DNA of 64,000 nt. It comes from Deltaproteobacteria bacterium. GTDB taxonomy: Bacteria > Myxococcota_A > Polyangia > HGW-17 > SLPX01. Below, in pieces: positions 223 through 18,661 of this stretch. The notes beneath the pieces are model-generated. The model saw only the letters and a list, made by a program, of their open reading frames with translations, had not been told where the DNA came from and made no database searches. The stretch is taken from assembly GCA_021162935.1 (NCBI GenBank), contig JAGGXR010000058.1, positions 1-64,000 on the forward strand, read 5' to 3'. A program made the position numbers and the translations under genes. Within the stretch, counting starts at the first letter, position 1. The number at the start of each line of letters is the position of its first letter.

Positions 223-1677
223 CTACCGATGGGGTTTCAAGCGACGGATGGGGTGCCGCAGGTGGCTTGCTCCTTTGAGCCGATGGATCCTGGACTTGGA
301 TATCCGGCGGATGTTCCGTTTTCTCAAGGCATTCGGGAAGACCCGACGTCGGCTATGCAGGTCGTCTATCTTGTACGTTTTTTTGACCTGGTCCACCATG
401 GCCTTCACCGTGGACTCGTCTTTGAGACTGACGCCCAGAGGGAGCACGGAACTGAGGAGATAGCTCCCGGTGACATGGCCTGCAGCGGCCTTGCGTAGGG
501 ACTTGAGCATGTTCAGCACGGCCCGCCGCAGGGACTGAGCCCGGCGTTCGTAGCGGCGATGCGTCGGGCCTTTGGCTGTCTTGGCTCGGTCTTCGTATCG
601 TTTCCATGTCCCCAGCATCCCAGCGATTCTCGTCTTGAGAAACGTGACCTGACTCAAGTCCTGGAAGTGGAGGTCGTTGCCCACGATGTGGAGTTCGGCC
701 ACCCCGATGTACTTGCCGCCGGGTGGCGTGCCGATGATGTATCCGTGATCCGCTTTTTGAGGCCGAAACAGCCATCCGCCGCGCCCCGACACGACTGACA
801 GCGCAATCTCGGGCACCTTGTTCATGATGTTCCTCGCTCGACCCACGTCCATGGCCGCGAGCAGGATGAACAGGGTCGCCCCCTTTGCTTTGAGGTCCGC
901 CACGGCTTTGGGTACCGTTTCGTCGGGATTCGCCAGTTTCACGTTGGCCGAGGGTTTGAGTTTTTCGCTTCGGGAGAGCCAAGTAGCACCCACCAGGCCT
1001 ATCGTGACCCCGTCGATGGTCACCAGACTTCCGGCTGGAAACACGCGTTTGCCGTGCCGATTCAAAATGTTCGAGGAGATCACCGGAGCATGGGTTTGGG
1101 CCACGAGTTTGCGGATGAGGCGCAGCCCCAACATCAGGTCTTGGGGGCCCAGATTGAGCGCGTGGGCCTGTTCATTGACCAGAAAACGCAGCACCAGGTC
1201 GGCCCGTGCCTTCCGGCGCGCGAGTTCGGCTGCATCGGGTTTCTGACTCCAGCCCTTCTTGCGGACGAGAGCATTGCCTGAATCCAGGACGAGCACGGAC
1301 GAAAACTTCTTTTTTTGTTCTGCGGTGAAGGTGGCTCGCCGGGCAAGACCGCCCAGCCGGTGAGACGCTCACCCACAGGGTTCGATCTCACCTCGAATGC
1401 CTCCCGAGAACACGATGGCAAGCACTTTGCCCGTGCCGCTGGGCCTGGGAGGCTTGATGGAATCGACGATGATGCGAACTTCGGCCGAGGTCTTGGGTCC
1501 AGGAATCCGTGGCGTTTGGCCCGGTCTTCCCTTCAGAGCCTTGCCCGCGTTTGGCTTATTCTTTTTTTGCGCTTTCGAGTTCTTCGAAGACGCAGCCTTC
1601 CCGTCGGAATGCTTACCGCATCCCCATAGAAGCAGGCTGGGGATGATCAGGGCTGCGACCAGAGTCCTTTTCTTCAT
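223..1677 (-). CDS. Metallophosphatase-like lipoprotein, predicted selenoprotein (Sec at codon 103)
   Basis: ATG 1677 follows AAGGAG and starts a lipoprotein signal peptide (LLLWGC, Cys20). The frame meets TGA at 1371-1369 (codon 103) and stays open in the same frame to TAG 225-223, giving 484 residues if UGA is read as selenocysteine. Around it reads GEIEPCG-U-ASHRLGGLARR; as I recall this family, CGC followed by GGLxRR is usual, so UGA replaces a Cys. A SECIS-like hairpin lies 18 nt after the UGA. The downstream part resembles the 5'-nucleotidase metallophosphatase fold (VLVLDSGNA, PVISSNI), but the usual DxH and GHxH metal ligands are absent (SGGIRG, SGRGG), so a redox rather than phosphatase role is possible. 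The last ~45 residues are Arg-rich and may mark a frameshift; another frame there is Pro-rich. Without Sec decoding this would be a broken gene. Confidence 0.75.
1338..1371 (-). promoter_or_regulatory. UGA codon plus SECIS-like hairpin
   Basis: On the reverse strand UGA (1371-1369) is followed by 18 nt and then the loop GGUCUU (1350-1345). The stem is 7 bp: 1357-1351 with 1344-1338, namely GGC-U-GGGC paired with GCCC-G-GCC read antiparallel, with one G-U pair. The bacterial SECIS consensus asks for a stem-loop with G in the first two loop bases, 16-37 nt after UGA. The loop core GGUCU is the one known from E. coli fdhF. The hairpin lies inside the coding frame, as bacterial elements do. Confidence 0.7.
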
Positions 1678-2031
1678 CTCGATCCATCTCCTTTCGACGT
1701 CAAAATCATCTCGACGTGAGATTCATGGCTTGCCAAGTGGCGGCAGGCTAACATGAGCGAATCCACCATTCAATGGAAGATCGGCAATTGTGGACACTCA
1801 GGGAAAGTGTCCAGTTTATTGGTCAGGGAAAATGTCCGTTCCAAAATGGAGCACGTTAACCGATACAGACCATGAGTAAAAGGCAATCCGATATCCATCT
1901 TCCTGTGTTTGTTGAGGCGGGTGAAAAAAAGCACCTTGTGACAGACGCAGCCTTTCGTGTTAAACATGCAACCGAATTGGTACCAAGATGGTCGCATGGG
2001 CGACATCGGCGTAAATGAGGAGGTGTGTCAG
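1678..2031. other. Divergent intergenic region with IS-end-like repeats
   Basis: This holds the upstream regions of the reverse selenoprotein gene and the forward lipoprotein gene. TGGACACT (1791-1798) and AGTGTCCA (1806-1813) form an 8-bp inverted repeat with a 7-nt loop. CAGGGAAARTGTCC occurs twice in direct orientation, at 1799 and 1824. Repeated GTGTCC and GGTCAGGGAAAATGTCC motifs resemble the multiple terminal repeats of IS21-type elements from memory, so this may be a solitary IS end. No transposase remains. A 49-codon ORF from 1872 is not recognisable. Confidence 0.35.
1791..1837. repeat. Inverted and direct repeats, possible solitary IS21-type end
   Basis: An 8-bp inverted repeat (1791-1798 with 1806-1813) overlaps the first of two direct copies of CAGGGAAARTGTCC, which start 25 bp apart (1799 and 1824). 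The arrangement is compatible with a relic insertion-sequence end or with a pair of regulator sites upstream of the lipoprotein gene at 2032. No mate end was seen nearby. Confidence 0.35.
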
Positions 2032-2782: not shown

Positions 2783-5032
2783 ATGGCAGAGGATACCAGC
2801 AGCAATCCGACTTTGGATCTGGATAGCCTCGGCGAGGAACTCAGAACCGACTACGGCGAGAAGCGACGGCTCCTGTCCTTTGCCGAGTATTTTGAATTGG
2901 TCCAGAGGGATCCGGTCCGACATGCCAGGAGTGCGGCCCAATATACCAAGGACGTGTTCGACCACTATGGAACTTACGAGGTGCAGGGTCCGGCAGGACC
3001 CTTGCGTCGGTTCACGCTTTTCGACTGCCCGTTCGGCCACGGGCGTGACCGTCTGGCGGGCCACGAAGAGGTCCAAAATCGGGTGTACCGTTCCCTGGAG
3101 GGCTTCATCCAACAGGGGAAGGTGAATCGACTCATCGTGCTGCATGGCCCCAACGGCAGCGCGAAATCCACCTTCGTGGATGTGCTCGCGCGAGGTCTGA
3201 AGCATTATTCCATGCTGGACGAGGGGGCTCTGTACCGGTTCAACTGGGTATTTCCCTCCGGAACCCTCGGAAAGTCCGGCATCGGATTCGCCAAGGCGCT
3301 TGCAGAGAGCCATGGCGAGCACGAAAGCTACGCACGTCTGCCGGACACCATGATCGAGGCGCGCCTGCCCGATGAACTGCGCGACCATCCGTTTCTGCTC
3401 GTTCCTGCCAGCAAACGACGCAGGATGCTTCATGAAATGCTCGAACAGGCGGGCGCAACGGACTTCGTGTTGTCGGACTACCTCAAATTTGGAGACTTGA
3501 GCCATCGAAACCGTCAGGTGTTCGAGGCGCTCCTTGCTGCCTATTCGGGGGACTACGCCAAGGTGCTTCGGCACGTGCAGGTGGAGCGATTTTTCCTGAG
3601 CAGACGCTATCGCGTCGGCCTGGTGACCGTGGATGCAAAACTGGCCGTGGACGCCTACACGCGACAACTCACCATGGACCAGTCACTTGCGCATCTGCCG
3701 CCGGTGCTCCAAAACCTGGAACTTTTTCGGTACGGTGGCGATCTCGTCGCGGCCAACCGGGGCGTGATCGATTTTTCGGACCTACTCAAGCGACCCGTTG
3801 ATGCATTCAAGTACCTGCTCAGCATGGTCGAGACGGGGCGGGTGGCGCTCGACAGCGCCGTGCTTTACACCGACACGGTTCTCTTCGGTTCCACGAACGA
3901 ACTCCATCTGGCGGCCTTTCGGGAGATGCCTGACTTCCAGTCTTTCCGTGGACGATTCGAGTTGGTCCAGGTGCCCTATCTGACGGACTACAGAGCGGAA
4001 GAGGATATTTATCGCGCCAGGGTCAGTGCCGAGTCGGTAGGCCGGCCCGCACCCCATGTCTTGGAGATGGCCTCTGTTTGGGCGATTTTGACCAGACTCT
4101 ATCGTCCGGAGGCGGAAGCCTATCCGGAGTCGATTCGTGAGGCAGTAAGCCGTTTGAGTGCTTTGGACAAGGCCTTGTTCTACAGCGACGATGTGCTCCC
4201 GGATTGGGTCGAAGGTGACGTCCTGCGGACGCTGCAGGCCTCGAAGAGACAGATGGTCGAAGAGCATCAGCAATGGCCGAATTACGAGGGCAACAGCGGC
4301 GTGAGTCCCAGAACGGTACTGGCCATTCTTTTGGCAGCAGGAAGGCGCCGCGAGCACGGACGTCTGTCCGCCCTGGACGTCCTTGCCGAGATAGAAGATC
4401 TCATCGAACAGAAGAATCTCTACGATTTTTTGAGGCGTCCCGTTCAAGAAGGCGGCTACTGGGATTCTAAAGCCTCGGTCGAATCGGTTCGAAGCTTTTT
4501 CTTGAGCCGCGTCGAACAGGACATGTGGCAGGCCGTTGGTCTGCTCGACGAACTGAAGGTGGACGAAATCGTCGCCGATTACGTGGACCACGTTTCGAGC
4601 TGGGTGAACAAAGAGAGGGTCCGGAACCAATTGACCGGCGCCATGGAGCCTCCAGACGAAAAACTCATGAACCAGGTCGAGGATTGGTTCGGGCCGCCTT
4701 CGAATCGCGAGGCCTTCAGAAACGACGTGATCACGCGGGTCGCCGCCTGGGCCATCGAGCATGCCGAGGGCAAACCGGACCTGAAGGCCATTTTTGCCAG
4801 GGAGTTGAGAAATTTTCGTACAAGGGCCATGGCGGATCGTCGAACGATCCTCGAAGAACGGTTGCGTGCGGTGATCACCCTCGTCGAGGAGCACGAACAG
4901 GAGCACGAGACTCGGGCAAAGGCCCGGGATACCCTAGAAACGCTGCACGAGCGTTTCGGCTATGACGAGGCGTCGGCCATGGAGGCCATCGGGCTCCTCC
5001 TGAGCCGGTTCGGCAGGAAAGCCACAAAATGA
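2783..5032 (+). CDS. prkA: PrkA/YeaG-type serine protein kinase
   Basis: This 749-residue protein belongs to the PrkA family, AAA-type ATPases described as serine protein kinases in Bacillus and in E. coli (YeaG). The N-terminal AAA region starts near residue 30; the Walker A motif GPNGSAKST is at residues 122-130. The C-terminal half carries the helical PrkA domain. GGGAGTGAGG precedes ATG 2783. Family members often sit with a YeaH-like partner and a SpoVR protein, neither of which is here. It heads an operon with a phosphoesterase and apbE, and its stop overlaps the next start by 4 nt (ATGA). The length is slightly above the usual ~640-690. Confidence 0.92.
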   Translation: MAEDTSSNPTLDLDSLGEELRTDYGEKRRLLSFAEYFELVQRDPVRHARSAAQYTKDVFDHYGTYEVQGPAGPLRRFTLFDCPFGHGRDRLAGHEEVQNRVYRSLEGFIQQGKVNRLIVLHGPNGSAKSTFVDVLARGLKHYSMLDEGALYRFNWVFPSGTLGKSGIGFAKALAESHGEHESYARLPDTMIEARLPDELRDHPFLLVPASKRRRMLHEMLEQAGATDFVLSDYLKFGDLSHRNRQVFEALLAAYSGDYAKVLRHVQVERFFLSRRYRVGLVTVDAKLAVDAYTRQLTMDQSLAHLPPVLQNLELFRYGGDLVAANRGVIDFSDLLKRPVDAFKYLLSMVETGRVALDSAVLYTDTVLFGSTNELHLAAFREMPDFQSFRGRFELVQVPYLTDYRAEEDIYRARVSAESVGRPAPHVLEMASVWAILTRLYRPEAEAYPESIREAVSRLSALDKALFYSDDVLPDWVEGDVLRTLQASKRQMVEEHQQWPNYEGNSGVSPRTVLAILLAAGRRREHGRLSALDVLAEIEDLIEQKNLYDFLRRPVQEGGYWDSKASVESVRSFFLSRVEQDMWQAVGLLDELKVDEIVADYVDHVSSWVNKERVRNQLTGAMEPPDEKLMNQVEDWFGPPSNREAFRNDVITRVAAWAIEHAEGKPDLKAIFARELRNFRTRAMADRRTILEERLRAVITLVEEHEQEHETRAKARDTLETLHERFGYDEASAMEAIGLLLSRFGRKATK

Positions 5033-6360
5033 ACGGCCTTATGGTGTTTGTGACGCTGTTCGGGGCCACGTCGAGCTTTTCCGGAGTGCCTGGATATGCC
5101 GTGCCGCCCTGCCTTCAGGGAGTGACCCGCCACGAGGCTGTGCTGTTCTGGCAACAGATCCAAAACCGGCCGGTGGAGGTCCGATATCGGACAGGGCGGA
5201 GTGCGTATCTGGTGCAGCACCTGCCGGCGGGGACGACGCTCCACAGAGTCGTCCTATCCGGACTCGTCCAGGGCCGTCGATACGAATACGGCGTGCGTAT
5301 CCAAGGCCAGGACGCCTGGGCCTCCGGCCGGTTCAAAACCGAGGGACGACCGTCGGATTCCTTCACTTTCCTCGTTATGGGGGACACGCGTTCAGACGTG
5401 CTCGCCCATTCCGCTGTGGTGGACGCCATGGCCACCGAGGATGCGGCGTTTTTTCTCCACACGGGCGACGTGGTCGCCCGGCCCGAAGAACTGTTGTATC
5501 GTCGATTCTTCGCCATCGAATGGCCGTTGCTCCGAAACGTCTCCATGCTGCCTGCTCTTGGGAACCACGAACTGTCCGGATCGTGGCAGAAGGGCAGGGC
5601 GCTGTTCAAGAAGTTCTTTCGTTTTCCAAATCGTGGTCCGGGGCCAGGGATCGAATATTCGTTCGTCTATGGCAATTCCATGGTTCTGTTCCTGGATTCG
5701 AATATGGAGTTTACCGGGTCGGAGCAGACATCATGGGCCACGTCCAAGCTCATCGAGGCAATGTCGGATCCAACCATCCGCCACGTCTTCGTGGTCATTC
5801 ACCATGGCCCCTTTTCTTCCGGCCCACACGGTCCGAACTGGGAGTTGGTGGATTCTGAACTCATGGAACAGTTCCAACGCTTTGGCGTGGACATCATCTT
5901 TTCCGGTCACGATCATTTGTACGAACGAGGGCGAATCGGCAACGTGCGGTATGTCGTGAGCGCGGGAGGCGGAGCGCCGCTGTATCCCATCAAACGTCGG
6001 CTTCCCAATACTGAGGTCGTCGAGTCCACCCACCATTACGTGCGGGTACGCGTGTCGGGCGATGCCGTGGAGGTTGCGGCATACCGACTCGACGGGTCTC
6101 TGCTCGACTGGTTCTCCTACGTCAAGGCTGGGGCGGATAGCATCGCCTCCGCGCCCGTGGTCGTGGCGGCGCGTTCCGACGGTCCGCGCCGCCTTCGTCA
6201 CGCATCGGCCGCAAAAAAACTCGGGAGGGGACCGCGTAGACCGGCTCGTCTGTCCGGCTGCGACGTGGTATCCTTTGGCGCCCTGCTCTTCTTTTTTCTG
6301 GGCGCCCTGGTGCTCGTCCTGCGCAGGCAGTACCAGTCACGAACGAGGACGAAACCATGA
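5029..6360 (+). CDS. Exported metallophosphoesterase with N-terminal Fn3-like domain and C-terminal membrane tail
   Basis: The 443-residue protein starts with a short signal-like segment, then a purple-acid-phosphatase-type N-terminal beta domain (about 30-105), then a calcineurin-like phosphoesterase domain. Its metal-ligand motifs are visible: GDTR, HTGDVV, GNHE, HHGPF and GHDHLYER. The C-terminus has a Cys (SGC), one transmembrane helix and Arg residues, like the MYXO-CTERM sorting tail of Myxococcota, so surface anchoring is likely. The start overlaps the prkA stop (ATGA 5029-5032) and the stop overlaps the apbE start in the same way, indicating translational coupling. The substrate is unknown. 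Confidence 0.88.
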   Translation: MNGLMVFVTLFGATSSFSGVPGYAVPPCLQGVTRHEAVLFWQQIQNRPVEVRYRTGRSAYLVQHLPAGTTLHRVVLSGLVQGRRYEYGVRIQGQDAWASGRFKTEGRPSDSFTFLVMGDTRSDVLAHSAVVDAMATEDAAFFLHTGDVVARPEELLYRRFFAIEWPLLRNVSMLPALGNHELSGSWQKGRALFKKFFRFPNRGPGPGIEYSFVYGNSMVLFLDSNMEFTGSEQTSWATSKLIEAMSDPTIRHVFVVIHHGPFSSGPHGPNWELVDSELMEQFQRFGVDIIFSGHDHLYERGRIGNVRYVVSAGGGAPLYPIKRRLPNTEVVESTHHYVRVRVSGDAVEVAAYRLDGSLLDWFSYVKAGADSIASAPVVVAARSDGPRRLRHASAAKKLGRGPRRPARLSGCDVVSFGALLFFFLGALVLVLRRQYQSRTRTKP

Positions 6361-7919
6361 CAGACATGCAGGTTTTCTTCGACCATTTTGACGAGTCTTC
6401 TCGTGGACGTCGAACGATACGCTCCCTCTCTCGTAGGGCCAAACCGATGCGGGAGCGTTCTTGCTTCGCCTCGTTGTCGTCGATGCTTGCGGTGCTTGCG
6501 TGGCTGGTCATGAGTTTTCAACTGGAAGGATGCGGCAAGCAGAGCGAATCGCAGAACGGGGCAGGGGGCGCGGCCATCCAGCCGCATTATCTCGGCCAGG
6601 AAGCAAACAACCCACATCTGTACGTGGAGACGCGTACCTTGATGGGCACAGTCTTTCGGCTCATCGTGTCACTCGAACAGGCGAAGGGTCCTGCCGAAGA
6701 CCTTGCATCGGTCCGCAAACGGGCCAAGCGTGCCTGTCAGTTGGCTTTCGATGAGGTCCATCGTGTGGAATCCAAGATGAGTGACCATCTATCGGGAAGC
6801 GACGTGGTACGGATCAACCAGGCAGCGTCCAAGGCGTTCGCAGCACATGCTTCCGTGTCGCCCACCAAGGTCAGTAAGGACACGATGCTCGTGCTGCAGG
6901 AGGCGCTCCAGGCGTCTCGACTCACCGACGGAGCGTTCGATGTCTCCTACGCCGCGCTCAAACCGGCCTGGCACATGAATGCAGAGGGCCCCCATCACGT
7001 TCCCACCGGGGCGAAAATCGCCAGGGCGCTCAAATTCGTCGGGTACCGACGTATCGTGCTTTCGCCCCAGGACGGCACTGTACGGCTTGCCCAGCATATG
7101 CGGATCGACCTGGGAGGCATCGCCAAGGGCTATGCTCTCGATCGGGCGTCAGTGGCGCTCAAGCAAGCAGGTTTCCAAAATTTCATCGTATACGGCGGCG
7201 GCGACCTGATGGTCTCGGGGCGACGACCCAAACGTCCATGGCGCGTCGGCATCCAGGATCCGAAGCATCCGCAGGACTACTTCGCCGTCCTGTCGGTGAC
7301 CAACCTGGCGGTGGTCACCTCGGGAGACTACGAGCGTTTCTTCGTGAAGAACGGCAAACGGTATCATCACATCATCAACCCGAAAACGGGTAGACCAGCC
7401 CGGGGCCTGCGGAGCGTCACCGTCGTTGCGGACCGCGCCGTGTACGCGGACGCCATGGCTACCGGCCTGTTTGTCATGGGGCTCGACCGAGCCAAGCGTC
7501 TCGTCGAACGGATACCAGATACGGAGGCCCTGTTCGTGACGAGTTCGGGAAACGTGGTGGCTACGAGTGGGCTGCGATCCGCCGTGACGTATCTTGGTCC
7601 CTATCAGCCAAAGAAAAAATTCGATCATGCAGCAGGGATCCGAGCGCGGACGGGTATGAGGCCACAGGCCCGCACGGGAAACAAGGCCCCTTTGGCCAAG
7701 CCGCCGACAGCCGCTCCGGGGCAGGACGACATGGGGGCTCGACCGCTCCTGTCACCACGGACGTTGCGATCAGCGCGTCCAGCACCTGCCGTCACGCCTC
7801 ATGCAAAGGATATGGCGGCCCGGCGTCCAACAGCGGCGGCTCGGTCCTCGTCTGGCATGGCGGCTCGACGCGCGCCCAAAACACCTCATCCGGCGCGCCA
7901 TCAAGGGAGGAATCAGTGA
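6357..7919 (+). CDS. apbE: FAD:protein FMN transferase lipoprotein, extended C-terminus
   Basis: ApbE attaches FMN through a phosphoester to Thr of exported redox proteins such as the NqrB/RnfD type. The core runs from about residue 85 to 400 and shows MGT near the start, DLGGIAKGYA, the flavin-contacting GGGDL, and HHIINPKTG with AVYADAMATGLF. A lipobox (LEGC, Cys59) follows a hydrophobic stretch; an in-frame ATG at 6447 would give a more typical signal peptide than the overlapping ATG 6357. The last ~120 residues are Ala/Pro/Arg-rich and low complexity, not part of the family. No flavinylated target is visible in the window. Confidence 0.9.
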   Translation: MTDMQVFFDHFDESSRGRRTIRSLSRRAKPMRERSCFASLSSMLAVLAWLVMSFQLEGCGKQSESQNGAGGAAIQPHYLGQEANNPHLYVETRTLMGTVFRLIVSLEQAKGPAEDLASVRKRAKRACQLAFDEVHRVESKMSDHLSGSDVVRINQAASKAFAAHASVSPTKVSKDTMLVLQEALQASRLTDGAFDVSYAALKPAWHMNAEGPHHVPTGAKIARALKFVGYRRIVLSPQDGTVRLAQHMRIDLGGIAKGYALDRASVALKQAGFQNFIVYGGGDLMVSGRRPKRPWRVGIQDPKHPQDYFAVLSVTNLAVVTSGDYERFFVKNGKRYHHIINPKTGRPARGLRSVTVVADRAVYADAMATGLFVMGLDRAKRLVERIPDTEALFVTSSGNVVATSGLRSAVTYLGPYQPKKKFDHAAGIRARTGMRPQARTGNKAPLAKPPTAAPGQDDMGARPLLSPRTLRSARPAPAVTPHAKDMAARRPTAAARSSSGMAARRAPKTPHPARHQGRNQ

Positions 7920-8365
7920 CGAAGAGCGATTCGTGGCTTGCCAGGACGCCCCTCCAGGTCCGGTTTCGGGACCTGGACGCCATGGGGCACGTGAACAATG
8001 CCGTGTACTTGACCTATTTCGAAATGGGTCGTGTGGCGTATCTCGACCTGCTTGGACTGGATGATCCTTCCAGGTCCTACGTGGAGCGTTTTCCCTTCGT
8101 CATTGCGCAGGTGACCGCCTGGTACCGGTCTCCTGCCGTGCTCGAAGACGAACTGGAGGTTCGGGTTCGCATTCCCAAGGTTCGGACCAAGCGATTCGAC
8201 TTCGAATACTGCATCGTATCCGGTCGGGATCAACGGCTCGTAGCAGAGGGCATGTCCGTGCAGGTCGGCTATGACTACGAAACGGGCACATCGGCTTCGT
8301 TGCCCCAAAAACTCGTGGATCGGATTGTGGAATTGGAGGGTTCGCAGGTCCTCGAAGAGGTGTGA
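7916..8365 (+). CDS. Acyl-CoA thioesterase, YbgC/FadM hot-dog type
   Basis: The 149-residue product has the 4-hydroxybenzoyl-CoA thioesterase-like hot-dog motif: VRFRDLDAMGHVNNAVY with the catalytic Asp (RFRDLD) and HVNN, then a beta-sheet (VRVRIPKV, FEYCIV). Such enzymes hydrolyse acyl-CoA thioesters in the cytoplasm; the chain specificity cannot be told. The GTG start 7916 overlaps the apbE stop by 4 nt (GTGA), and the stop does the same with the next GTG. Confidence 0.9.
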   Translation: MTKSDSWLARTPLQVRFRDLDAMGHVNNAVYLTYFEMGRVAYLDLLGLDDPSRSYVERFPFVIAQVTAWYRSPAVLEDELEVRVRIPKVRTKRFDFEYCIVSGRDQRLVAEGMSVQVGYDYETGTSASLPQKLVDRIVELEGSQVLEEV

Positions 8366-10485
8366 GCATGCATCGATCGAACAAGATTAATGTGACCATA
8401 CATCGACCATACAAAGTCAAGATGTGGAGCGATCGGCTCCCATGGCTCGCTTTGATCGCCGGAAGCGCCCTGTGGGTCATGGTGCCTGGGGCATCGAGTC
8501 CGGCTTGGGCCGACCAGCCTGGACCGTCGGCAGGGGGGCCGGCCTTTGAGGGGATGCCGCCTGCATCCGTCCAGAGCATGCACCAGTACGAACTATGGCG
8601 CCATCGCGGCGAGGCGCCTGCCCCGCGTGTCTGGACGTCTCCCTTGGACCGAACGACCCAACGCCAAGCAGGGCCCAAAGGACGTCGCAACATGAAAGCG
8701 AAGCAGGTGCAGCGGATCGTCTACGGATACTTTCCCTACTGGGTTTCGGACCTCGATGCGATCCAGTGGGATCGGCTCACGCACATCGCCTATTTCGCCG
8801 TGGAACTTACCTCGGCTGGCGCCGTGTCCGCCACGCACGGATGGCCCGACCAGGCGGTCATCGATGCTGCCACGTCCACTGGGACCACCCTGGACGTGAC
8901 CTTTACCCTGTTCAGCGCATCGGGCATCGCCACCCTTTGTGGGAGTACCACGAATCGAGCGGCTGCCATCGATTCCATCATCGCCCAGATGGAAGCAGGG
9001 CCGGCCGACGGTGTGTCCATCGACTTCGAATCGCCGAACAGCGCCACCAGAGAAAACTTTGTGCTGTTTATCCACGAGCTTCGGGCCGCTTTGGACGCAA
9101 GAGGACACCAGGGAGCCGAGATCTCCATTGCGGGCACGGCCTGGAGCAGCATTGGCGGCATCGACCTGGACGCATTGCTGGACGATGCGGACATCTATTT
9201 CATCATGGGCTATCCGTACTTTGGAAGCTGGTCGTCCAGGGCCGGTCCTGTGGGCAAGCTGCGCACGGCTGGGAGTTGGGCCTCGGTATCCAGCCTGTCG
9301 GCTGCCAGGACCATCGCCGCCTATGCCAAGATGGTGTCAGCGGACAAGCGGCACCAAGTGGTTCACGGCGTGCCGTACTACGGATGGCATTGGGTCACTG
9401 CGGATGACCAGCCGGGATCGACCGCCACGTCGAGTGTCGGGGCCATTTTTTACAGCGCTGCGCGTGACGCCGTTGCCGGCGGTCGGACGAGGCGCTGGGA
9501 CATAGACGTGCTCAATCCTTGGTATGCCTGGCAGGACACGAGTTGGAACCAGGTATGGTACGACGACGAAGAAAGCCTGGCAGCCAAGTATCAGCTCGTG
9601 CTGGAACAGGATCTGGGCGGCATCGGCATTTGGGCGCTCGACTACGACGTGGGCTATTCGGATCTGTGGGATCTCATCGGCCAGGCTTTTGGCCAGGAAC
9701 CCACTCCCCAGGACGGCGATCGGTTCCAGCCGATACGGATCGATACATTTCCTTTCCACGACGCGCGGGACACGAACCAGGCGCCGTCGAACTACTTCGA
9801 CTTCTATTCCTGTTCGCCTGACACGGCCGAATACGGTCGCGAGTGGGTGTATCGCATGGACCTGTGCCAACCAGGTCATGTAACGGCCCATGTGCCGCAG
9901 TATTCGGACCGGGACCCCGACCTCCATCTCCTGACCGGGCCCACCCAGGACGACTGCATCGCCCGGGCGGACCAGGATTTGGCCCTGGATGTCCAGCCCG
10001 GCATGTACCTGCTCACCGTGGACAGTTGGGTGGACAGCCACGACATCCAGAAAGCTGGACCCTATGACCTGGACGTGGATTTTGCCCCCGACCCGAACAG
10101 CCAGCCCTGCCGCGACGATCAGGTCTGTGACCAGGGCACCTGCGCCTGTCCCGACGACCTGTCCGACTGCGACGGCGCCTGTGTGGACACGAGTCAGGAC
10201 CCGAACCACTGCGGATCCTGCGACCGTGTCTGCGACCCGGGCGCCCAGTGCCAAAATGGCGACTGCGTGTCGGACCAGGTCGACGACGGCGGTATGGATT
10301 CAGGGCGCATGGGTGACGGTGGATCCGCCGACGCCAGCCAACTGCCCTGTTGCGGCTGCCCGGACAAAGGAGGCTGCTCCTGCCGTACGGCCACGACAGG
10401 CCGAAGGGGCCAGTGGCCCCTCGGATCCGGGCTTTTCGTCACCATTCTTTTTGGCCTATTTTGGTGGAGGCGCAGACGCCAGTGA
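8362..10485 (+). CDS. Secreted GH18-family glycoside hydrolase with Cys-rich region and MYXO-CTERM-like tail
   Basis: This 707-residue protein has a signal peptide (cleavage near SPAWA), then a GH18 chitinase-like barrel starting RIVYGYFPYW. The active-site segment DGVSIDFE (216-223) keeps the catalytic Glu but has Ser at the third-acidic position of DxxDxDxE. A beta domain follows (PIRIDTFPFHD), then a Cys-rich module (CDGACVDTSQDPNHCGSC) and a tail of Cys, one transmembrane helix and RRRR. GTG 8362 overlaps the previous stop (GTGA); ATG 8368 is the alternative. A paralogue with the same domain order lies at 31751-33949. Confidence 0.85.
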   Translation: MSMHRSNKINVTIHRPYKVKMWSDRLPWLALIAGSALWVMVPGASSPAWADQPGPSAGGPAFEGMPPASVQSMHQYELWRHRGEAPAPRVWTSPLDRTTQRQAGPKGRRNMKAKQVQRIVYGYFPYWVSDLDAIQWDRLTHIAYFAVELTSAGAVSATHGWPDQAVIDAATSTGTTLDVTFTLFSASGIATLCGSTTNRAAAIDSIIAQMEAGPADGVSIDFESPNSATRENFVLFIHELRAALDARGHQGAEISIAGTAWSSIGGIDLDALLDDADIYFIMGYPYFGSWSSRAGPVGKLRTAGSWASVSSLSAARTIAAYAKMVSADKRHQVVHGVPYYGWHWVTADDQPGSTATSSVGAIFYSAARDAVAGGRTRRWDIDVLNPWYAWQDTSWNQVWYDDEESLAAKYQLVLEQDLGGIGIWALDYDVGYSDLWDLIGQAFGQEPTPQDGDRFQPIRIDTFPFHDARDTNQAPSNYFDFYSCSPDTAEYGREWVYRMDLCQPGHVTAHVPQYSDRDPDLHLLTGPTQDDCIARADQDLALDVQPGMYLLTVDSWVDSHDIQKAGPYDLDVDFAPDPNSQPCRDDQVCDQGTCACPDDLSDCDGACVDTSQDPNHCGSCDRVCDPGAQCQNGDCVSDQVDDGGMDSGRMGDGGSADASQLPCCGCPDKGGCSCRTATTGRRGQWPLGSGLFVTILFGLFWWRRRRQ

Positions 10486-15970: not shown

Positions 15971-18661
15971 TCAGTAGAGTTGGTGGCGCAGGTCCAATAG
16001 GACCTGGATGCCGATGGTGAGGTTCGAGGCGATGTTTACGGGGGCGTTCTTCGTGTCGTACAGATAGAACTCGTGGTTGATGGTCACCGACAGGTGATCC
16101 ACGAGTGAGACGCTCAGCTTATTCGTCCACAGGAGTTCCTTTGCCTGGAGGCTGGCAATCTGGACGAAGGAGAAATCGAGCCTGGATTCCAGGTAGATGC
16201 GGGACTTCAGTATTTTCGTGATGGCGCAGCGATCCAGGGTGAAGCCAGCGTAGAGTCCCTGTTCGAGCATGCGTTCGCCACGGATCAAGATGTTGTGGGA
16301 TCGATTCATGTACCCGATTTTGAAAAAGAGTTTTGGGCGAAGCATGAACCCGGGGCCGATGCTGCCCGAGGTTTCGGTGTACCGATAGGTCCGTCCGTCG
16401 TCGCCCACGAGATTCGGCGTGATCTCCGTCTGGATGTAGCCTTCCGTGTAGGGAATCGGAAAATACCATTTTTTCGGGTCGTAGCGCCCGTGCCACCGCT
16501 TGAATTTGTAGAGGAGGTTCAGATTCACGAGGTCGTTGGTTTCCGCCTTGGCCACGGTTGTCAGTCCGGTGAGTTCATCGGTTATCCAGGTTTTGGACTT
16601 GCCGTACTTGACGCTGAAGGTCGCGGCGATTTCGTGCATGTCGTTGACCGCCTTGCCCGTGACGGAGGCATCCAACAGAATGCCGAGCATGCGCTGGCGG
16701 TTGAGCTGGGGCTGGTCCTGATAGAGGCCGGGATGCAAAATGGAGACGCCGGTCAGGGAGAAGTCGGCGGAAGTGACCAGGGACAGAATGAAGTTCTTGT
16801 GGAAGGAGACGAAGTTGCGATCCAGGTCGATGATGGGCTGTCCCTTGGGGTGGCGGTATCGGTCCAGGTCGAAGAAGGAGATCGCCGCGTTTCGGACCGT
16901 CTGTTTTTGCGTGGGGCGTTGGACCCACTTGGGCAAAGGAACGAGCCCTTCGCCTCCGGTTGCAACGAAGTCCGTGGTGGCCACTCGGTAGTGCTGGGCG
17001 TCTTCGATGACTCGTCCGTTGACGTAGAACAGCTTGCCTTTCTTGCTGAGACCTTCGACCCAGAGGCGGGGCCAGGTCCGACCGAGGTACTTCTTCAGAT
17101 GCGTCTTGATCCAGGAGCCCTTGACCAGGGCGACGACGACCCGATCCTTGAATCGAATGGCGCGTTCGATGCGCTCACGAGTCATGCGTCCGGACAGGGG
17201 AAACCCTGCATCCGCAAAGAGGCTGTCTTGCAGTATGGCGAGTTCGGCATGCACCGATCGGGTCAGGATGCGCAGCATGTAGCGGATGAATTCGGATCGA
17301 CTCTGTGGGCGGCGTATGACCCCGTGGCCCAGGGGCACGTCGATGCGCTGGCAGAGATCGGACATGATCGCGGTGATTTGCCGCGCCACCTTCTGGTCGG
17401 AGTGATACCGAGTCGTGGGTATGAGGTCCACGTGGACCGATGGCCTTGCGCCATGGCGCTGGGGCAGGGTGATGACCGCATGCCCGAGGGATTGACCGAA
17501 TCGGCCCGATGAGGCGATGGCCGTGCCGTCCGAGCGGTTGATCACGGCGATGAACTGCTGGCTCCGCAGACCGTACATGCCGTTTGCAATGGTCAGGTCG
17601 GGCGCATCGCTTCGCAAGGCGCGCACCAAGGCCAGGGTCTTTCTTGGAGCCGTGGAAATGTCGTCCAAATCGCTGACGAGCACCACGATCGTCGCCCCTC
17701 GATGTCGTGCTCGCCGAATGGTCTTGGCAACCCACTGATTCACTGTGTGACTGGAAAGGCCGATGGCGCGCTGTTTTCCAAGATACGCTGCGAGGTTCCC
17801 AGGGAGCACCGACAGGATGGCCACCTTGACGAGGCCACGACGGACCATGACGAATCCTTGGGATCGATCCGACAGGCTCTTGCAGCGCACGTCCTTGGTG
17901 TTCGAGCAGGTCAGGTTACCGGCCAACAACGGCAGGTGGCTGCTGGATGCAAGGCTCGCAAGTCTCGTGAGCGCCTGGCCCGCGGACAGATCGAACATGC
18001 CCAGGGCGAGTGCGTCGTAGCGCGTGCGCGACAGGAGCGAAACGATGGAGCCGAGCCAATGGGTTTCGCCCACGAATTCGCCCAAGACGTCGGGTCCCAA
18101 AACGCTCCCCGAGGAAATGACGATGGGGGATGGATCTCCGGCCTGGACGACCCGACGCCGCAGGGCATCCACGGCGGCCATGATGTTCCCGAAATGGGCG
18201 TGACGCCGGTCTCGATTGGCGCAGCCAGGCCAGTGATATCGCCCCATGAGGTCCGTATGGAACAGAATGTGGATTCGAATCCCATGGGCACGGGTGCTCT
18301 GCAGAGAGCCCTGGCTCGCCGTTTGCCCTGCAACCGCGCCATGAATCGTGGGCGATGTGGTCGATGGGGAACGAGTTTGGCGCGTGACCGCAGCCTTGGA
18401 CCTGACGTTGGACCTGGGTTGTTGTGCCGACTTGGACCTGACGTTGGGCCTGGGTTGTTGTGCCGACTTGGAATTGGCGCGCGCCTTGAACCGCGTTCGG
18501 TTCGTGGCAGCGGCGTTCGTCTTGTCATGAGTTTGAGCCCGAGCCCGAGCAACCCGGGACGGACCGGCCACGAGACTGCACAAGAGCACGACGGAACCGG
18601 ACAGGAGCCTCCAGCATGGCAGAGCAGGGGAGAGATGACTTCGTCGCCGTCCGTGTTGCAT
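15971..18661 (-). CDS. 5'-nucleotidase-like protein with C-terminal beta-barrel-like region
   Basis: With ATG 18661 the product has 896 residues: a basic n-region, a hydrophobic signal core (LLSGSVVLLCSLVAG), a Gln/Ser/Lys/Arg-rich linker with a 36-bp tandem duplication, a UshA-type metallophosphatase domain and the 5'-nucleotidase C domain (TTDFVATGGEGL). The usual metal motifs are degenerate (HTDLMG for DxHG, ANGMYG for GHxH), so catalysis is doubtful. A WPGC motif stands where the selenoprotein at 223-1677 has CGU. The last ~250 residues have alternating aromatic strands ending in Tyr, like an outer-membrane barrel. ATG 18766 is a possible earlier start with GGAA upstream. Confidence 0.78.
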   Translation of the reverse strand: MQHGRRRSHLSPALPCWRLLSGSVVLLCSLVAGPSRVARARAQTHDKTNAAATNRTRFKARANSKSAQQPRPNVRSKSAQQPRSNVRSKAAVTRQTRSPSTTSPTIHGAVAGQTASQGSLQSTRAHGIRIHILFHTDLMGRYHWPGCANRDRRHAHFGNIMAAVDALRRRVVQAGDPSPIVISSGSVLGPDVLGEFVGETHWLGSIVSLLSRTRYDALALGMFDLSAGQALTRLASLASSSHLPLLAGNLTCSNTKDVRCKSLSDRSQGFVMVRRGLVKVAILSVLPGNLAAYLGKQRAIGLSSHTVNQWVAKTIRRARHRGATIVVLVSDLDDISTAPRKTLALVRALRSDAPDLTIANGMYGLRSQQFIAVINRSDGTAIASSGRFGQSLGHAVITLPQRHGARPSVHVDLIPTTRYHSDQKVARQITAIMSDLCQRIDVPLGHGVIRRPQSRSEFIRYMLRILTRSVHAELAILQDSLFADAGFPLSGRMTRERIERAIRFKDRVVVALVKGSWIKTHLKKYLGRTWPRLWVEGLSKKGKLFYVNGRVIEDAQHYRVATTDFVATGGEGLVPLPKWVQRPTQKQTVRNAAISFFDLDRYRHPKGQPIIDLDRNFVSFHKNFILSLVTSADFSLTGVSILHPGLYQDQPQLNRQRMLGILLDASVTGKAVNDMHEIAATFSVKYGKSKTWITDELTGLTTVAKAETNDLVNLNLLYKFKRWHGRYDPKKWYFPIPYTEGYIQTEITPNLVGDDGRTYRYTETSGSIGPGFMLRPKLFFKIGYMNRSHNILIRGERMLEQGLYAGFTLDRCAITKILKSRIYLESRLDFSFVQIASLQAKELLWTNKLSVSLVDHLSVTINHEFYLYDTKNAPVNIASNLTIGIQVLLDLRHQLY
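18396..18467. repeat. 36-bp tandem duplication
   Basis: Two copies of a 36-bp unit (18396-18431 and 18432-18467) differ at one base. In the reverse gene they encode a repeated 12-residue unit containing SAQQPR and NVRSK in the linker after the signal peptide. The unit is a multiple of three, so copy change alters only linker length. Confidence 0.8.

Follow-up and report, generated by a model that had tools for sequence, protein, structure and literature searches.

A divergent, haem-less member of the UshA-like CxU family encoded by a predicted selenoprotein gene of a Deltaproteobacteria genome

Introduction

Annotation frequently takes selenoprotein genes for broken ones, and standard gene finders would cut in two the gene described here. 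It lies on the minus strand near the start of a stretch of 64,000 nucleotides (the window) from contig JAGGXR010000058.1 of a Deltaproteobacteria bacterium (assembly GCA_021162935.1), and its reading frame contains a single TGA. The locus raises the question whether this TGA is a stop or a codon for selenocysteine (Sec), to which family the product belongs and what the product could do. A first-pass annotation of the sequence had predicted a selenoprotein of a metallophosphatase-like family and knew no description of a Sec-containing member.

Such members were listed in 2008, when the family 'COG0737, UshA-like, CxU' was represented in the Global Ocean Sampling data by 76 Sec and 92 Cys sequences and was counted among those that lack a conserved redox motif based on Cys (PLoS Genet 2008, PMC2398784). 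A UshA-like CxU selenoprotein family was also listed in a later publication (Biomolecules 2022, PMC9312934), and the model NF041198, with the motif CxU, appears together with a second family, NF049981, with the motif CxxU, in the most recent one (AEM 2026, PMC13188914).

Results and Discussion

Reading frame and homologues

Translation of the minus strand gave a frame of 484 codons from ATG 1677 to TAG 225-223 with TGA 1371-1369 as the sole internal stop, and coordinates and frame were exactly as first annotated. The TGA, codon 103, is embedded in GEIEPCG-U-ASHRLGGLARR. The leader MKKRTLVAALIIPSLLLWGC ends in a lipobox-like sequence with a cysteine that is invariant in the aligned homologues, in agreement with the lipoprotein-type leader proposed before. 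The features of the locus are collected in Table 1.

Table 1. Features of the UshA-like locus in the window.
Feature	Position	Strand	Remarks
Predicted UshA-like selenoprotein CDS	223..1677	minus	484 aa, Sec103, TAG 225-223; translated with TGA=U
AGGAG, Shine-Dalgarno-like	1688..1692	minus	10 nt ahead of ATG 1677; read from sequence
Cys20 codon, putative lipobox cysteine (LLWG-C)	1618..1620	minus	invariant Cys in 10/10 aligned homologues
UshA/5'-nucleotidase-like domain, ~residues 82-435	373..1434	minus	profile match, AlphaFold model, Foldseek matches (5'-nucleotidases, SoxB)
Cys101 codon, first residue of the C-x-U motif	1375..1377	minus	kept in Sec and Cys homologues
UGA codon 103, predicted to be read as selenocysteine	1369..1371	minus	42 homologues with UGA and 49 with Cys at this place
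Putative bacterial SECIS hairpin GCUGGGC-GGUCUU-GCCCGGC	1338..1357	minus	loop 1350-1345; folding and loop-codon conservation

A scan of the relatives' contigs with the single window protein as query gave no matches, and an alignment was needed as query. Alignment searches of the class and of named genomes yielded 91 distinct homologues with the motif PC[GA][U/C], 42 with UGA and 49 with Cys exactly where the second Cys of a CGC motif had been expected. The nearest relatives belong to the same order (G002 and G005, 32% identical to the window protein over residues 7-435 and each interrupted by a single in-frame TGA), followed by G013 and G021, also with TGA, and by Cys forms in G015, G023, G047 and others. 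The UGA forms span Myxococcota, Desulfobulbaceae, Neomarinimicrobiota and others. Two of the records, L126 and L150, are 'Klebsiella pneumoniae' MAGs of which the UshA-like selenoprotein genes group with those of Deltaproteobacteria/Myxococcota; these organism names look mislabelled.

The TGA could also be a genuine stop, caused by a nonsense mutation or a sequencing error, with a pseudogene or a gene in two pieces as the result. The gene is indeed divergent, with a long branch of 1.52 changes per column in the tree, and translation of a 357-aa piece could start anew at GTG 1296. However, the same codon is UGA in dozens of independently assembled genomes, no further stop occurs ahead of the TAG, and both a conserved SECIS loop codon and the Sec machinery are present, as described below, so that a genuine stop is very improbable. 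A sequencing error in particular appears very unlikely because other, independently assembled genomes carry the same UGA.

SECIS hairpin

In bacterial selenoprotein genes, the bSECIS pattern consists of an in-frame UGA followed, at a distance of about 16-37 nt, by a hairpin of which the first two loop positions are G. The window gene agrees with this pattern: the centroid fold contained a 7-bp hairpin with the loop GGUCUU and 18 nt between UGA and loop, in line with the first-pass annotation. Taken alone, this hairpin proves little, because the loose 5-bp hairpin (bSECIS) rule was also satisfied by 37 of the 49 Cys homologues and did not separate Sec from Cys forms. The folding energy was unremarkable (z = 0.29 for a 56-nt piece) and a search with Rfam gave no SECIS match at the window locus.

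Comparison of the homologues was more informative. Local hairpins were stronger in the Sec than in the Cys homologues (mean −8.8 versus −5.0 kcal/mol), and the stem pairs were mostly kept across the relatives, in two registers with a loop of either 6 or 5 nt. A Gly-Gly pair starts six codons after the UGA in 42/42 UGA forms, with the codons GGC GGT in 39 of them, and the loop starts with GGUCU in all Sec forms except three. The second of these Gly codons forms part of the SECIS loop; it reads GGT in 39/42 Sec forms, compared with 2/29 Cys forms that have a Gly-Gly pair (Fisher p = 5e-14, kinship ignored; the sequences are not phylogenetically independent). This difference argues that the RNA at the SECIS is constrained by selection beyond that on the protein.

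Selenocysteine machinery

The genome (5.13 Mb, 168 contigs, 97.1% complete) contains the Sec machinery: profile searches matched selA with 539 bits and selB with 331 bits, a tRNA-Sec (selC) with anticodon TCA scored 68.9 bits, above the Rfam cut-off, and two selD genes were found. Contamination is an unlikely source of these genes because the tetranucleotide composition of the selA and selB contigs, with r of 0.917–0.919 to the window, agrees with it as well as 6.6-kb pieces of the window do with the whole, for which the minimum is 0.909.

In the genomes checked, selB tracks the UGA form. It was above the cut-off in 5/5 checked genomes of the class with a UGA form (G000, which is the genome of the window, G002, G005, G013 and G021) and not in two genomes with Cys forms only (G015 and G023). 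Nor was it above the cut-off in six order-mates (G003, G004 and G006-G009), in which no member of the UshA-like family was found at a stricter threshold. In G001, which is 65% complete, selB was present and the UshA-like gene was not found.

With the conserved UGA, the conserved SECIS loop codon and the Sec machinery in the genome, the TGA of the window gene almost certainly encodes selenocysteine, and the prediction of a selenoprotein gene is accepted here with high confidence on these comparative grounds. Incorporation of Sec in the cell and a location of the protein at the surface are inferred.

The second selD gene (L053/L059, G000:C124:218-1135, minus strand) has an in-frame TGA of its own at the expected active-site region (ASGUAAKLGPEDL). 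This Sec-containing SelD coexists with a SelD without in-frame stop on C82.

Family identity

The NCBIfam model NF041198 (UshA_like_PCGU, 'UshA-like (seleno)protein') matched residues 82-435 of the window protein with E=2.2e-48 and 165.1 bits. It was the best match by far, covering 354 residues, and the Pfam search gave no significant family for this protein. The score lies below the curated cut-off of 275 bits of this 519-position model. Among the haem-fused relatives, this cut-off was passed by L126, L094, L110 and L099 (279, 340, 605 and 657 bits), while L026, L040 and L155 remained below it (246, 250 and 265 bits). Haem-less members scored below it, with 165–220 bits, or 186–220 bits for those other than the window protein. 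The low score is in part due to the absent C-terminal domain, which removes attainable score. Strict membership of NF041198 by its cut-off is thus not reached, and the protein is assigned to the broad UshA-like CxU family.

In the tree, the window protein groups with L023 and L024 (support 91/94), within a group of 51 rows that holds all 41 Sec rows (support 100/99). The possibility of a genuinely new selenoprotein family, as suggested by the first-pass annotation, draws on the score under the cut-off and on the missing haem domain. It is contradicted by the extent of the NF041198 match, by this position inside the Sec-holding group and by the scores of the other haem-less relatives, which are also low compared with the 246–657 bits of the haem-fused ones. 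The PCG[U/C] motif, the Gly-Gly pair six codons later, the Sec position and the SECIS are moreover all the same as in the NF041198 family, and a new family is hence considered extremely doubtful. The window protein very probably belongs to the known UshA-like CxU selenoprotein family, as a divergent member without the haem domain. The earlier belief that Sec-containing members were undescribed was wrong, in view of NF041198 and the CxU entries in PMC2398784, PMC9312934 and PMC13188914; Sec-containing UshA-like members have been known since 2008 and this is not a new kind of selenoprotein.

With NF041198 the protein shares the PCGU motif, the place of Sec, the lipoprotein-type leader, the UshA-like domain and the SECIS right after the UGA. 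It differs by its greater divergence, by the absence of the C-terminal cytochrome c554 domain and by the complete loss of the compared metal ligands. The second family, NF049981 (UshA_like_Sel_2, PMC13188914), has a related UshA-like domain, but its motif is CxxU and not CxU, its profile is shorter (262 positions) and the score of the window protein, 39.6 bits, is far under the cut-off of 140.

Fold and loss of metal ligands

The AlphaFold model of the window protein had a pLDDT of 79.8 and a pTM of 0.77, with a confident core; Sec was treated as Cys and the CxU loop was modelled with a pLDDT below 50. The best PDB matches in Foldseek were 5'-nucleotidases and SoxB (3ivd, 1ush, 2z1a, CD73), with E values of ~1e-15 and modest TM-scores of ~0.4–0.5. 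The fold is thus shared with the UshA, NadN and CD73 5'-nucleotidases and with the SoxB thiosulfohydrolase, but the window protein is without their dinuclear metal ligands. To our knowledge, no Sec occurs in these 5'-nucleotidases or in SoxB.

The ligands were aligned with those of L003 and L004, the classical 5'-nucleotidases of the same genome. Of D-x-H, GD, GNH, H and GHxH, none is kept in the window protein: D-x-H is replaced by G-I-R, GD by GN, GNHE by GPQD, SH by AA and GHxH by SGRG. Cys101-x-Sec103 closely follows the site of the lost D-x-H pair. The earlier label of a metallophosphatase-like family therefore holds for the fold as seen with AlphaFold and Foldseek, and is not expected to hold for the activity. 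A role as phosphatase seems unlikely because none of the compared metal ligands is kept.

A working metallophosphatase or 5'-nucleotidase, in which Cys/Sec serves as metal ligand or accessory group, would be compatible with the fold and with relatives such as L025, which retain the GD, H and GH ligands. Against it stand the complete absence of the compared canonical ligands from the window protein, the position of CxU behind the lost first ligand pair and the haem fusion in most relatives, which points to electron transfer. This option is regarded as improbable.

Elsewhere in the window, at 17660-18049 on the minus strand, L005 marks a large ORF of ~1,040–1,100 aa that resembles the same UshA-like model weakly (20 bits). 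Here, too, the ligands of classical 5'-nucleotidases look degenerate (TDLMG, SSGS, GMFD).

Haem domain

A C-terminal cytochrome c554-like domain with CXXCH motifs, taken as the NF041198 profile positions after ~378, was found in 33/42 Sec forms. The window protein has no CXXCH and no Pfam haem domain, and the domain is likewise absent from L023, L024, L025, L098, L100 and L104. Contig ends truncate L103 and L135, so that the domain cannot be judged in these two. A separate gene for the haem domain was considered and rejected: no CXXCH genes were seen in the DNA examined near the haem-less loci and PF13435 had no match anywhere in the genome.

In the Neomarinimicrobiota sequences L098, L100 and L135, the UshA-like protein with Sec is short and the SECIS is the same (GGCGGTCTTGCCAGG). 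L098 and L100 lack the haem domain, apparently through a separate loss of haem or through transfer, while L135 is cut by the contig end.

Proposed function

In the proposed mechanism, SelB would insert selenocysteine at residue 103 with the help of the SECIS hairpin that comes directly behind the UGA, and the product would be a secreted, membrane-anchored lipoprotein built on the 5'-nucleotidase (UshA) fold. The old active-site cleft would now serve selenol/thiol redox chemistry, or bind soft metals or sulfur ligands, and would lie outside the membrane. A thiol/selenol site is the most likely present use of the cleft, because the remaining canonical metal ligands are gone. For Cys101-x-Sec103 as the redox site of the window protein the chances are rated as even; the 2008 survey, which placed UshA-like with the families that have no conserved redox motif of this kind, speaks against it.

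In most relatives, the fused cytochrome c554 domain with its four haems would take up or deliver the electrons, and the haem-less clade would need a separate electron partner; the redox step and its partner are what the model suggests. No conserved gene neighbour or nearby cytochrome that could name this partner was found at the loci of the window and its relatives. The haem-less branch (the window protein, L023, L024, L025, L098/L100 and L104) might tentatively be seen as stand-alone Cys-x-Sec lipoproteins with a lost metal site and an electron partner that differs from that of the cytochrome-fused relatives, possibly with a distinct new enzyme activity.

Beyond what was found in PMC2398784, PMC9312934 and PMC13188914, the analysis adds the detail of Sec in a phosphatase fold with a degenerate metal site, and of a four-haem cytochrome that is fused to this fold in most cases and missing in some. 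It makes the function of a long-known, uncharacterised UshA-like selenoprotein family more testable, as redox rather than phosphatase. The architectural twist relative to the known family is mild, and the knowledge of selenocysteine decoding itself is unchanged.

Gene neighbourhood

Comparison of the neighbourhoods of the window gene and its relatives showed no conserved operon. In G002 and G005, a metK-like gene is located nearby upstream and a trypsin-like gene downstream, both named by eye from the sequence. The neighbours in the window are on the other strand and include PrkA-like kinase, metallophosphatase and ApbE genes. They belong to a plus-strand run at 2783-10485, made up of a PrkA-type serine protein kinase (2783-5032), a calcineurin-like phosphoesterase (5029-6360), ApbE (6357-7919), a thioesterase (7916-8365) and a GH18-like gene (8362-10485), in which neighbours overlap by 4 bases in an operon-like manner.
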